Positions 14,486 through 42,879 of a stretch of 64,000 nt of DNA are shown here, piece after piece (positions within the stretch are counted from its first letter, which is position 1; every line of letters starts with the position of its first letter). Source of the DNA: Chloroflexota bacterium. Lineage in GTDB: Bacteria; Chloroflexota; Anaerolineae; Anaerolineales; Villigracilaceae. Where the stretch lies: NCBI GenBank assembly GCA_021824575.1, contig JAKAKJ010000005.1:1-64000 (forward strand). Direction: 5' to 3'. Position numbers and translations under genes: made by a program. The notes under the pieces are model-generated. The model had not been told where the DNA came from. It saw nothing but the letters and a program-made list of their open reading frames with translations, and made no database searches.

Positions 14486-15151
14486 CTATGGGAGGTTCTT
14501 CTTCAAAAAATCAAACGTTCGATCCCAAGCCAGCTTCGCAGACGCGGGATCATATTCCGGGCGATCTGATTCCATGAACCAGTGATGAACTCCCGGGTAG
14601 GTATGAATCGTCACGTCCATGCCCGCGGCTTTCATGTTGGCTTCCATCTCGCGCACGCCTTCGATTGGTTCCCATTCGTCCACTTCACAAAAATGGCCGA
14701 GAACCTTGGTTTTGATCTTGCTGAAATTCATGGGATATGCAGCATAAAATAGAACCGTTGCAGCAATGTCCGGCTCTTTAGTCATGGTGACAATTGCCCA
14801 GGCTCCACCCATGGAGAATCCAATCACGCCGATGGGCTTTCCCGGCTGAAGCGAAACAAGATGATCTTTGGCGGCTTTAACAATATCGCCCATGAAATCA
14901 TCATCGAATTTTTTATGCATGGCTTCAGCCTCTTCAATCGTTTTGGCGATTTGACCCCGGTAGAGATCGGGCGCAAGCACCGTATATCCATGTTCTGCGA
15001 GTTGATCAGAAGCCTGCTTGAAGAATGGTTTGAGCCCCCACCAGGCATGCAGTAATAAAATTCCCGGTCCGCCGTTGGCGGATCGGGATAGATACGCGTT
15101 GACATCTTTGCCGTTCACCGATAATTTGATTTCAGACTTTTGTGCTGGCAT
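14486..15151 (-). CDS. dienelactone hydrolase family protein
   Basis: The 221-residue alpha/beta hydrolase has the nucleophile elbow GFSMGG, the acid in CEVDEWEP and the His in GVHHWFMES. Classical dienelactone hydrolases use Cys as nucleophile; here it is Ser, so the substrate probably differs. The start MPAQKSEIKLSVNG and HAWWGLKPFFKQ are typical of the family. It is placed between E3 and the ICMT-like gene on the minus strand; a link to the 2-oxoacid dehydrogenase is not obvious. Confidence 0.88.
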   Translation of the reverse strand: MPAQKSEIKLSVNGKDVNAYLSRSANGGPGILLLHAWWGLKPFFKQASDQLAEHGYTVLAPDLYRGQIAKTIEEAEAMHKKFDDDFMGDIVKAAKDHLVSLQPGKPIGVIGFSMGGAWAIVTMTKEPDIAATVLFYAAYPMNFSKIKTKVLGHFCEVDEWEPIEGVREMEANMKAAGMDVTIHTYPGVHHWFMESDRPEYDPASAKLAWDRTFDFLKKNLP

Positions 15152-15254
15152 AATATTTTCTCCTTATTTCTAATGGCGTAACGCATATTCAAATGGCTCT
15201 CGGATATTGACTTGGAGTCAATTCCATTATACTGCACATGTGTTCTAAAAATCA

Positions 15255-39032: not shown

Positions 39033-39710
39033 ATGAATGAGCGGATTTTGATCATCGAAGACGACCAAGCAATTCTCAAGTTGTTGCAGCGCGGCCTTGC
39101 TTATGAGGGCTATACCGTGGATACTGCGACGGACGGCCGCACTGGTTTGATTCTTGCGCGCGACCATACGCCCGATCTGGTCATTCTGGACTGGATGCTT
39201 CCGGGCATGGACGGCCTCGAAGTCTGCCACCGGCTTCGGACGGGCGGCTCGATCCCGATCTTGATGTTGACCGCTAAAGATACGGTTCAAGACCGTATCC
39301 AAGGCTTGGACGCCGGGGCGGACGATTACATGATCAAGCCGTTCAATCTCGACGAATTGCTGGCGCGCGTGCGCGCCTTGTTGCGGCGCACCCAGCCCGA
39401 ACGCGTTCCGGTCTTGAAATTCGCCGACCTGACGCTCGATACTGGCTCACGTCAAGCTTCGCGCGGCTCGCGTCTTATCCCGCTGACAGCCAAGGAATAC
39501 GAATTGCTCGAACTTTTCCTGCGCCATCCCAAACAAGTCTTGACGCGTGAAGTCATTTTCGATCGCGTGTGGGGTTACGATTTCGGCGGCGAGAGCAATG
39601 TACTCGAAGTCTATATTCGTTATCTGCGCCAGAAGCTCGAAGCTGACGGCGAATTGCGTTTGATCCATACGGTCCGCGGCGTAGGATATGTTTTGCGTGA
39701 AAATCCGTAA
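39033..39710 (+). CDS. OmpR-family response regulator
   Basis: The 225-residue protein has a receiver domain with acidic pocket IIEDDQ, phosphorylation site Asp53 in [10 protein letters not shown] and Lys in DYMIKPF, and a winged-helix DNA-binding domain ([40 protein letters not shown]). It controls transcription after phosphorylation by the kinase encoded 114 bp downstream. Targets are unknown. Confidence 0.93.
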
Positions 39711-39780
39711 GCAGATCATTGTAGAATCTGGCGTGCGAATCAAGTTGTTTTGCATACAATAATTGATAAGTAAAGTGAGA

Positions 39781-39811
39781 CTGCTTCGTGACATTATGTG
39801 TCACGAAGTAG
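39781..39811. other. hairpin between response regulator and kinase genes
   Basis: CTGCTTCGTGACA (39781-39793) and TGTCACGAAGTAG (39799-39811) form a 13-bp stem with one G-T pair and a 5-nt loop. It ends 14 bp before the kinase ATG and has no T-run, so it may reduce readthrough or hide the ribosome site. Confidence 0.55.
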
Positions 39812-39824
39812 CGGCTTCTTATTT

Positions 39825-41222
39825 ATGTCTCTCCGCCTTCGTCTGACACTTTTATATTCCACGCTGATGGGGGGGATTCTCATCATCTTCGGTGCGGCAG
39901 TCTATATTTTGATCAGCCTCATCCTGCTCAACCAGGTGGATGATGCGCTGGCAGAAACTGTGCAGGAAATTCTCCAGGTCACGCGGGTTAATTCCATCGG
40001 GCAGGTCAACGACCTCAATCTTCCTCCGCTTGATCTGACGGCGAATACGTATGTCCAGGTTTGGGGGCGCAATGGAAAACTCGAGACCAGTTCGCCAGGC
40101 ATTGCTGCCATCACCCAATCGCTCGACCCCATCGGCTTGAAAACCAAGGATCCGGTCTATCGTGAAAACACCATCAACGGTGTGCGCCTGCGCGTGTTGA
40201 CGGTTCCGCTCGAAGTGGGCGAACATAAGATTGCCATTTTGCAGGTTGCAACCAGCCTGATCGTGGTTGATTCGGCCAGGGCAAACCTGATAAAAATCCT
40301 TGTGTTCGCCGCACTATTTGCTGTGGCACTGACCGCGTTAGGCTCGTGGTTGGTGCTTGGCCGCGCCCTGGCGCCATTGCAGATCGTGACCGAAACCGTA
40401 CAGGTGATCAACCGCGCGGACGATCTTTCCCGCCGCGTTCCCTACACAGGTCCGCCAGACGATGAGGTGGGCAGTCTGATCGAGGCCATCAATCAAACAC
40501 TGGAACGGCTGGAGAATCTGTTTACATCGCAGCAGCGTTTTCTCGCGGATGTAAGCCATGAACTTCGCACGCCACTAACGGTCATCAAAGGCAACGTTGA
40601 TTTGATGCGCCGGATGAAACAGCTCGACGATGAATCGCTTTCGAACATTGACCAGGAAGCCGGACGCCTCACGCGTTTGGTCGGCGGGCTGTTGTTATTG
40701 GCACAAGCTGAGTCAGGCAAGCTGACGCTCAACATGGCCCGCGTCGAGCTGGATACGCTTGTGTTGGAAGTCTTTCATGAAATGCGGATTCTTGCGGGCA
40801 GCAAAGTGCATTTGAAAATGGCTGATATTGACCAGCTTCAAGTCCAAGGCGACCGTGACCGTCTGAAGCAGGTTTTGCTCAATCTCGTCGGAAATGCGAT
40901 TCAATACACGCCCCAGGGCGGAGACGTTTTCCTCAGCCTCGCCAAAGTTGGCGAACAGGCCCGCATCATCGTCCGGGACACGGGGCCGGGCATTCCCGCC
41001 GAGGATTTGCCCTTCATCTTCGAGCGTTTCTACCGCGCCGAAAAATCGCGGACGCGTTCCAAGACCAGCGGATTCGGTCTGGGACTTTCCATCGCACAAT
41101 GGATCGTGGAGAATCACGGCGGGACGATCAAGGTCGAATCGAAAGAGGGGCAGGGCACAACCTTTGCGATTTGGCTTCCGCTGCTTGTCGAAGCGCCTCT
41201 GCCGATAAAGACCACAGACTGA
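39825..41222 (+). CDS. sensor histidine kinase
   Basis: The 465-residue kinase has an N-terminal helix, an extracytoplasmic domain of about 130 residues, a second helix (LIKILVFAALFAVALTALGSWLVL), a HAMP region, the HisKA phosphoacceptor His245 in DVSHELRTPLTVIKGN and a HATPase domain (NLVGNAIQYTPQ, DTGPGIP, GFGLGLSIAQWI). It should phosphorylate the upstream regulator; the stimulus is unknown. The ATG at 39825 begins the transmembrane region. Confidence 0.92.
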   Translation: MSLRLRLTLLYSTLMGGILIIFGAAVYILISLILLNQVDDALAETVQEILQVTRVNSIGQVNDLNLPPLDLTANTYVQVWGRNGKLETSSPGIAAITQSLDPIGLKTKDPVYRENTINGVRLRVLTVPLEVGEHKIAILQVATSLIVVDSARANLIKILVFAALFAVALTALGSWLVLGRALAPLQIVTETVQVINRADDLSRRVPYTGPPDDEVGSLIEAINQTLERLENLFTSQQRFLADVSHELRTPLTVIKGNVDLMRRMKQLDDESLSNIDQEAGRLTRLVGGLLLLAQAESGKLTLNMARVELDTLVLEVFHEMRILAGSKVHLKMADIDQLQVQGDRDRLKQVLLNLVGNAIQYTPQGGDVFLSLAKVGEQARIIVRDTGPGIPAEDLPFIFERFYRAEKSRTRSKTSGFGLGLSIAQWIVENHGGTIKVESKEGQGTTFAIWLPLLVEAPLPIKTTD

Positions 41223-41225
41223 AAT

Positions 41226-41918
41226 TCAGCCGCTCATTCCCAATTGTTGTTTTGCTTTATTGCATAAACTTGCTCCACCGGCCCTTAGCCATTCATTGAG
41301 CCGCGCAGATTGCGTCGCGCCTGTTAGTGTATCTTCATAGATTCCGCTTCCCCAATAGACATATCGTGATGTTTCGGCGGCCCAGAACCATTCTCCTGAC
41401 GAGATGACGCTGATGCCGCCGTTATAACCTGCCAGCGCTAGGCGGACGTTGTTGTTGGAGGCTGCAAGCGAGCGCCTTAAATAATCGAGTCCGCGCGCTG
41501 CATTGGTATCCGGATCGTAGGGATCGTCGCTCGCAAGAAAATGATAGGGCATGACTTGGAAGAGCCCCATCGCGCCTGCGCTGGAGCGCGCGAAGGGATT
41601 TCCACAGGATTCGATCTGCATGATAACGGCGACCAAGTTTGGATCCAGGCTTGAAGCAGTCGCCCATCGCAGGATCGAAGAATCCCAGCGCTGGACTTCC
41701 GGCGTGAAGATTGGCGATATTGTCCCGATTGTGGGTGAATTGGCTTTTGCCAAAACGGCCTGAGCCGAACTATTGAATGCGAAAACAGCGAGCAGCGCAC
41801 CGACGACAAGAACTGCAAATGGCGGGAGCAGAAATAAAGACAAACAGCCGCTGGCGTTCGATGTTTCATTGGCCGCGGCTGTCTGCCGGATTTGTTCGTT
41901 GTAACGAGCGCGGGACAT
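41226..41918 (-). CDS. lytic transglycosylase (SLT domain)
   Basis: The 230-residue protein has an N-terminal membrane segment (SLFLLPPFAVLVVGALLAVFAF) and a C-terminal SLT domain: catalytic Glu in AVIMQIESCGNPFARSSAGAMGLFQVMP, AARGLDYLRRSL, and LAGYNGGISV. Lytic transglycosylases cut peptidoglycan glycan chains and can make room for secretion machinery or assist lysis. GAAAGGA selects the ATG at 41918. It probably shares the promoter with the LexA-like operator of the upstream gene. Confidence 0.88.
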   Translation of the reverse strand: MSRARYNEQIRQTAAANETSNASGCLSLFLLPPFAVLVVGALLAVFAFNSSAQAVLAKANSPTIGTISPIFTPEVQRWDSSILRWATASSLDPNLVAVIMQIESCGNPFARSSAGAMGLFQVMPYHFLASDDPYDPDTNAARGLDYLRRSLAASNNNVRLALAGYNGGISVISSGEWFWAAETSRYVYWGSGIYEDTLTGATQSARLNEWLRAGGASLCNKAKQQLGMSG

Positions 41919-42011
41919 GAGATTCCTTTCAAAGTCGGGTTGAGAAACCCGCGTCGGCTGAATTTTCACGCCAGGTTTGTTATAAAATCCCCGGCGCTGG
42001 GTTGAATGAAA

Positions 42012-42776
42012 TTACTGTTTGCGTGGTTCGCCAGTTTCGTAAGGCGATTGCGAAGAATCAAATGACAGGTTGTGGTAGGTTGGTTCAGGCCGGTTGAATG
42101 TAGTTTGACTTGTCGGCGGCTTGGGCGCCGATCGGAAACTTTGCGATACGGGCCTTGGGAGCGATGAGGCCGGTCTCAGAATTGACGGACTGGATGTTAT
42201 TGATTGCTGTGTGCTGGGCCTGTTGCCATACGCCCGGCCATCCGCCGTGGAAAACAAATTGTCACCTGCCACTGAGAATGTTCCAATGATAAGCACGCGG
42301 ATCAGCCAGACCATGACCGCGACGAAGATCGGCACAACCTTGATCAATGTGGCGTTGCTGACGACAGAGCCTCCGGCTGCGCTGCTGTGACCGACGATCG
42401 CGACCGACACGCCCCACCAGGTCAATGTGGCATTGAAGCCTGCCGCCAATAGCCACGCGCCGAAGAGATACCAAACCTCCGCAGGTTCATCGCGTCCCTG
42501 CTGCGGAGTGAAGATGCGGGCAATGCCTGCAAAGTCAATGCCGCAGAAGGCGATGGCAAGGATCGTTGCCCAGCGGAAACCTGCAAAGGTAAGATCGCCG
42601 AGTATATCCCGCAAGGCAAACTGGGTGGTGCTGTAGTTGAATACCTCGAAAGCGAGCAAAGCGCCGAGGATCATCATGCCCCAGGCCGCGCCGCGGTTGA
42701 AACGGCGGCCATGAGCCAGGCCGTTCCACATTGCCCTGAGGCCGTCGCCTGTGCCACGCGAACGGACAGTGTTCAT
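42012..42776 (-). CDS. membrane protein with Pro/Ser-rich tail
   Basis: The 254-residue protein has four predicted helices in its first 170 residues (GAAWGMMILGALLAFEVFNY, WATILAIAFCGIDFAGIARIF, WYLFGAWLLAAGFNATLTWW, IKVVPIFVAVMVWLIRVLIIG) and a low-complexity Ser/Pro/Thr tail. No family is recognised. It directly precedes the transglycosylase gene (gap 93 bp) and is the first gene after the LexA-like promoter. Confidence 0.7.
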   Translation of the reverse strand: MNTVRSRGTGDGLRAMWNGLAHGRRFNRGAAWGMMILGALLAFEVFNYSTTQFALRDILGDLTFAGFRWATILAIAFCGIDFAGIARIFTPQQGRDEPAEVWYLFGAWLLAAGFNATLTWWGVSVAIVGHSSAAGGSVVSNATLIKVVPIFVAVMVWLIRVLIIGTFSVAGDNLFSTADGRAYGNRPSTQQSITSSPSILRPASSLPRPVSQSFRSAPKPPTSQTTFNRPEPTYHNLSFDSSQSPYETGEPRKQ

Positions 42777-42805
42777 TTCTGCCTCCTTTGTAAACAGATA
42801 GGTGG

Positions 42806-42834
42806 ATTTTAGAACACTTGTTCTAAGCTGTCAA
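42806..42834 (-). promoter_or_regulatory. promoter with LexA-like palindrome
   Basis: TTGACA (42829-42834) and TAAAAT (42806-42811) on the minus strand are 17 bp apart. The perfect 18-bp palindrome TTAGAACACTTGTTCTAA at 42809-42826 fills the spacer and overlaps the -10. It contains GAAC-N4-GTTC, the consensus of Gram-positive LexA boxes. Confidence 0.8.
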
Positions 42835-42849
42835 GGTTTGGATATTAGA

Positions 42850-42879
42850 AGAACGGACATCCGAATGGATGTCCGTTCT
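42850..42879 (-). terminator. terminator of rny
   Basis: AGAACGGACATCC (42850-42862) and GGATGTCCGTTCT (42867-42879) form a perfect 13-bp stem with a 4-nt loop, followed on the minus strand by TCTAAT. Confidence 0.75.

Follow-up and report, generated by a model that had tools for sequence, protein, structure and literature searches.

LexA very probably controls a pair of adjacent genes in the 64-kb stretch of DNA that we analyzed (the window), one for a membrane protein, given the working name MemA, and the other for a membrane-anchored lytic transglycosylase. From sequence comparison, we put the probability of this control at roughly 0.85. The palindrome in the memA promoter is well supported as a LexA operator (SOS box) of the Gram-positive GAAC-N4-GTTC type. 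A preliminary description of this DNA had proposed that LexA represses the pair, and this proposal gained support from the operators of lexA and recA, from conservation across the order, and from operons in relatives in which the pair lies next to lexA together with a DNA repair gene.

On the minus strand, the operator TTAGAACACTTGTTCTAA occupies the 17-bp spacer between TTGACA and TAAAAT and overlaps the -10 hexamer (Table 1), in agreement with the coordinates described previously. The palindrome had been called perfect, which holds for its 8-bp arms (TTAGAACA/TGTTCTAA) but not for the central CT, which is non-palindromic and accounts for two mismatches to the reverse complement of the operator. 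The start codon of memA is ATG 42776, with the ribosome-binding site AAGGAGG. As an estimate of chance occurrence, no shuffled window contained an operator match at up to three mismatches. The hairpin suggests that memA is transcribed separately from rny, but a T-rich tail was scored for it only on the opposite strand. The genes for RecX and RNase Y (rny) do lie upstream of the memA promoter on the same strand, as had been noted, and both were verified with Pfam. However, rny is near memA in only 2 of 67 relatives, and we dropped the recX/rny linkage from the evidence as incidental.

Table 1. Positions of the genes and promoter elements in the window
Feature	Position	Strand	Remarks
memA (working name), 254-aa membrane protein	42012..42776	minus	about 4 predicted transmembrane helices
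Membrane-anchored lytic transglycosylase, 230 aa	41226..41918	minus	one transmembrane helix, then SLT domain
Putative LexA-type operator TTAGAACACTTGTTCTAA	42809..42826	.	core GAAC-N4-GTTC at 42812-42823; matrix rank 1 in window; kept in orthologous promoters
-35 hexamer TTGACA	42829..42834	minus	promoter agrees with 11 of 12 consensus positions; 17-nt spacer
-10 hexamer TAAAAT	42806..42811	minus	3-nt overlap with operator
13-bp hairpin, terminator-like	42850..42879	.	between rny and memA promoter; T-rich tail scored on plus strand only

The host genome encodes RecA and a single LexA of 224 aa, which contains LexA_DNA_bind (PF01726, above cut-off) and Peptidase_S24 (PF00717, 96 bits) domains. 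The preliminary description had suggested comparing the palindrome with the sites before lexA and recA, and had stated that its proposal would be refuted if the lineage used a LexA motif with another sequence. The operators of lexA, recA, and memA turned out to have a common GAAC-N4-GTTC-type core at the same promoter position. The host lexA promoter reads TTGACA-CTGAACGCATGTTCAG-GTATTAT, with its operator in the same place as that of memA, and the host recA promoter reads TTGACG-GA-CTGAACATCTGTGCTA-TACT, a form retained in most of the related genomes read. In relatives, GAAC(A/G)NN(T/C)GTTC immediately follows TTGACA in the lexA promoter, usually together with a second, weaker TAGCACAAATGAGCGA-like site.

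We then scored sites with a weight matrix whose only training sites were operators from the lexA and recA promoters of the lineage; most of these scored 16.3-19.9 bits, with one weak site at 8.0 bits. The memA site reached 20.3 bits, ranking first in the window and exceeding every training site. Across 80 relatives, this matrix almost always placed the top site of the whole locus at the memA promoter. Promoters of Y-family polymerase genes were judged at three loci, as the search pattern for their starts missed most loci; TTGAACGATTGTTCAA lies upstream of the gene at one of these, L208.

We found memA homologs in 89 of the 101 related genomes; the GTDB collection contains 426 stretches that encode a memA relative. 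To assess conservation, we took the 76 fetched loci that had 200 bp or more upstream (74 of them bacterial) and counted up to two mismatches as an operator match. The operator preceded memA at 73 of the 74 bacterial loci, whereas the same loci contained a single match in 602,434 positions outside the memA promoters. The exception was L182; at L059, the promoter of which is near-identical, the operator stretch is masked by N. The conserved operator usually lies between TTGAC and the -10 hexamer, and some loci carry two. A transglycosylase gene was located downstream of memA at 72 of the 74 bacterial loci. The same arrangement was present in other families of the order, and six genomes from them (G061, G062, G064, G065, G066, and G067) carry a site roughly 80-145 nt ahead of the memA match. 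The most divergent relatives have a recA-like version of the memA site, GAACA-NN-TGTGC (G082, CAGAACAAGTGTGCTA; G090, TAGAACATTTGTGCTG). No LexA was found in the G090 genome (83% complete), where LexA-like sites nonetheless accompany memA.

Two relatives from another family have the pair in a tag-memA-transglycosylase operon close to lexA; tag encodes a methyladenine DNA glycosylase (PF03352). In one of them, G089, the operon and lexA are divergently oriented, and the perfect palindrome TAGAACAATTGTTCTA precedes tag. In the other, G076, which belongs to the same genus, the order of the three genes is unchanged, lexA is about 2 kb away, and the lexA promoter contains TAGAACTTACGTTCGC. This context ties the pair to the SOS response independently of the motif.

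The previous assignment of the downstream gene to lytic transglycosylases was confirmed by PF01464 (E 8.6e-19; 67.7 bits against a cut-off of 21.3). Its conserved start is ATG 41918, giving 230 aa, rather than GTG 41969, and the gap between memA and the transglycosylase gene is 93 nt. The predicted catalytic residue, Glu103 in QIESCG, and the flanking motifs GLFQVMP and AGYNGG are invariant. A response regulator and a histidine kinase are encoded at 39033-41222 of the window, convergent with the transglycosylase gene, and 68 of 73 relatives have a histidine kinase motif downstream of memA.

MemA had no match in Pfam, NCBIfam, PHROGs, or the PDB. Its C-terminal tail is disordered and carries a conserved EPTYH motif. 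The AlphaFold model was poor (pLDDT 62.8, pTM 0.43) and too weak for fold inference, so none was drawn; a search of the PDB with this model gave no significant match. With about four helices, MemA does not resemble the small proteins with a single transmembrane helix (YneA, SosA, SidA, and ChiZ), but it may work like such single-pass SOS division inhibitors. A memA homolog with 43% identity is encoded on two virus contigs (L188:4947-5645 and L189:4947-5645), roughly 0.3 kb ahead of a terminase-like gene that bears an intein, and no SLT gene was found on these records. We considered a prophage origin of the pair and rejected it, as memA had no match in 50,697 phage records, the viral homologs are 43% identical and no SLT was found with them, and the transglycosylase has only distant relatives on virus contigs. 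The neighbors of the locus are recX, rny, and the two-component system rather than phage genes.

To look at the wider regulon, we scanned the 101 related genomes with the motif and with its reversed pattern as a control. The extended motif with at most one mismatch occurred at 453 sites compared with 43 for the control. In the host genome, GAAC-N4-GTTC alone was too short to be informative (40 sites versus 43 for the control), and we therefore used the extended motif together with conservation. With two mismatches allowed, the extended motif was at background level as well (16 versus 17). Genes recurring behind the extended motif in the genomes read were memA, a second memA paralog without the transglycosylase, and genes for a small AAA/NACHT-like ATPase, VOC-domain proteins, and LuxR-type regulators, the last three having no evident repair role.

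Several individual sites were also noted. Many genomes of the family have two memA copies, and a paralog without the transglycosylase lies behind a LexA-type site in the host genome (L002:1567-2277; G000:C19:10132). The ATPase family, of about 260 aa and AAA/NACHT/FtsK-like, is encoded just behind the motif at L010, L194, L200, L205, and L222. In the window itself, a second LexA-type site, TAGAACACATGTGCAG, is located at 15232-15247 on the minus strand, immediately before TATAAT, and precedes a gene of the dienelactone hydrolase family (14486-15151, minus strand); a similar gene in G012 (L227) lies behind TTGACAG-TAGAACATTTGTTCAAG-TAAAAT. Elsewhere in the genome of the window (G000:C75), TTGACAG-TTAGAACAAATGTCC-TATAAT precedes the gene for a radical-SAM protein with an HHH motif (L006:1528-2703), which resembles TIGR03916 (putative DNA modification/repair) below the model cut-off. 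A one-mismatch motif near position 1201 of L279 (G004:C40) precedes the gene for a small membrane protein of 127 aa that seems holin-like on visual inspection, and the motifs at L283:1201 and L197:1501 are near genes whose products, also on visual inspection, are TIR-like domain proteins.

If LexA acts as proposed, its binding to the operator would block RNA polymerase at a near-consensus promoter. RecA filaments on damaged DNA would then trigger LexA self-cleavage, and memA and the transglycosylase gene, presumably co-transcribed, would be derepressed and expressed together. MemA would most likely act in the membrane as a platform for the anchored transglycosylase, recruiting or gating it, and the enzyme in turn would cut peptidoglycan glycan strands locally. 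The envelope might thereby be remodeled and septation delayed during DNA repair. Given LexA control, we tentatively favor this effect, at somewhat below even odds, on the basis of domain content and SOS-induced membrane division inhibitors; we judged it the most likely one because of the analogy with damage-induced, division-delaying membrane proteins and with ChiZ. More speculatively, the pair could constitute a new type of DNA-damage checkpoint, chromosomal and order-wide, in which a LexA-controlled four-helix family and a dedicated transglycosylase, unrelated to SulA, YneA, SidA, or prophage lysis genes, stop septation or break filaments.

The main alternative to wall remodeling is a lysis device under LexA control, in which MemA would be holin- or pore-like and the transglycosylase endolysin-like, so that heavy damage would end in lysis of the cell and release of its DNA or of vesicles. 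A membrane protein and a glycan-cleaving enzyme in one damage-controlled operon would fit such a device, as would the presence of phage endolysin/tail lytic proteins (phrog_669) among the closest SLT domain profiles and the distant memA homologs beside a terminase-like gene on two virus contigs. There is also a precedent in the explosive lysis of Pseudomonas aeruginosa, where an SOS-controlled endolysin is the damage-induced wall-degrading enzyme (PMC4834629). However, the transglycosylase has its own predicted N-terminal membrane helix and would therefore probably need no holin for export, the memA paralog has a LexA-type site without a transglycosylase, and no SLT was found on the two virus contigs. 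Conservation throughout the order and a DNA repair gene in the operon of some relatives also suit repair better than suicide. We consider lysis unlikely.

An alternative to LexA itself, which we regard as improbable, is that a different repressor binds the memA-type consensus TAGAACANNTGTTCTA and runs a separate envelope or stress regulon. The memA-type sites are indeed more strictly palindromic than those of lexA and recA, most of which differ from this consensus by at least three mismatches, and several of the genes linked to the motif fall outside the classical SOS set. Nevertheless, the GAAC core, the promoter position, and hybrid forms are held in common with recA, the matrix built solely from lexA and recA operators placed the memA site first, and the pair lies beside lexA and tag in relatives. 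A dedicated second regulator is further disfavored because no transcriptional repressor gene recurred behind the motif in 25 genomes. Even less probable is an opening of the wall by the transglycosylase and MemA for competence- or conjugation-like DNA transfer or uptake during the SOS response, with the motif-sharing FtsK/NACHT-like ATPase. SLT enzymes are standard components of DNA-transfer machines, and a P-loop ATPase with weak FtsK/AAA similarity recurs in the same regulon; but this ATPase is unlinked to the operon, its Pfam matches are weak, and around the operon, the regions read contained no genes for a relaxase, pili, or competence.

Only a few phyla are known to place the cell envelope under SOS control, and they do so via unrelated small proteins. 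In the literature searched, coverage of which was incomplete, we found neither a description of the SOS system or regulon of Anaerolineales or Anaerolineae nor a LexA-controlled chromosomal lytic transglycosylase pair. SOS regulons themselves are known; what is new here is one with a putative, uncharacterized envelope effector. The occurrence of the operator and the pair throughout an order of Chloroflexota suggests a new and testable connection of DNA damage with the envelope. If true, a conserved LexA target pair would be a candidate for the means by which DNA damage acts on division, the fragmentation of filaments, or the release of DNA in Anaerolineales, which are abundant and often filamentous bacteria. 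It would also give a starting point for working out what this family of membrane proteins, encoded at several hundred sites in public genomes, does.

Bacillus subtilis, Mycobacterium, and Clostridioides difficile have LexA/SOS regulons with operators of the GAAC-N4-GTTC type (PMC3323433, PMC4234289). The present system resembles these regulons in the core and spacing of the operator, in its location within the promoter, and in the same type of site at lexA and recA, but differs in its extended arms (TAGAACA-NN-TGTTCTA) and in its targets, since memA, its paralog, and the transglycosylase gene were not described in the papers found. In Mycobacterium tuberculosis, the DNA-damage-induced, membrane-anchored ChiZ (Rv2719c) is reported to be a cell wall hydrolase and division inhibitor (PMC3989709); its induction is RecA-independent according to a title cited in PMC13396833. 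ChiZ is a single protein with LysM, whereas here an SLT-type transglycosylase has a separate four-helix partner. YneA, SosA, SidA, and DivS are likewise damage-induced membrane proteins that delay division (PMC13396833, PMC6851548). They differ from the pair in being small membrane proteins without a catalytic partner, and we found no sequence relation between them and the pair. The preliminary description considered an SOS-controlled pair of this kind unusual outside prophages; the pair is indeed chromosomal and order-wide, with no prophage context seen, but ChiZ and YneA are damage-induced, wall-associated proteins that also occur outside prophages. The endolysin of P. aeruginosa explosive lysis belongs to a prophage-like pyocin cluster, whereas the pair studied here has no surrounding phage genes and is conserved on chromosomes across the order. 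With family 1 (SLT) lytic transglycosylases, the enzyme shares the SLT domain, the catalytic Glu, and the usual motifs, from which its activity is predicted; unlike them, it is short, has a one-helix N-terminal anchor, and is encoded behind a LexA-type operator.
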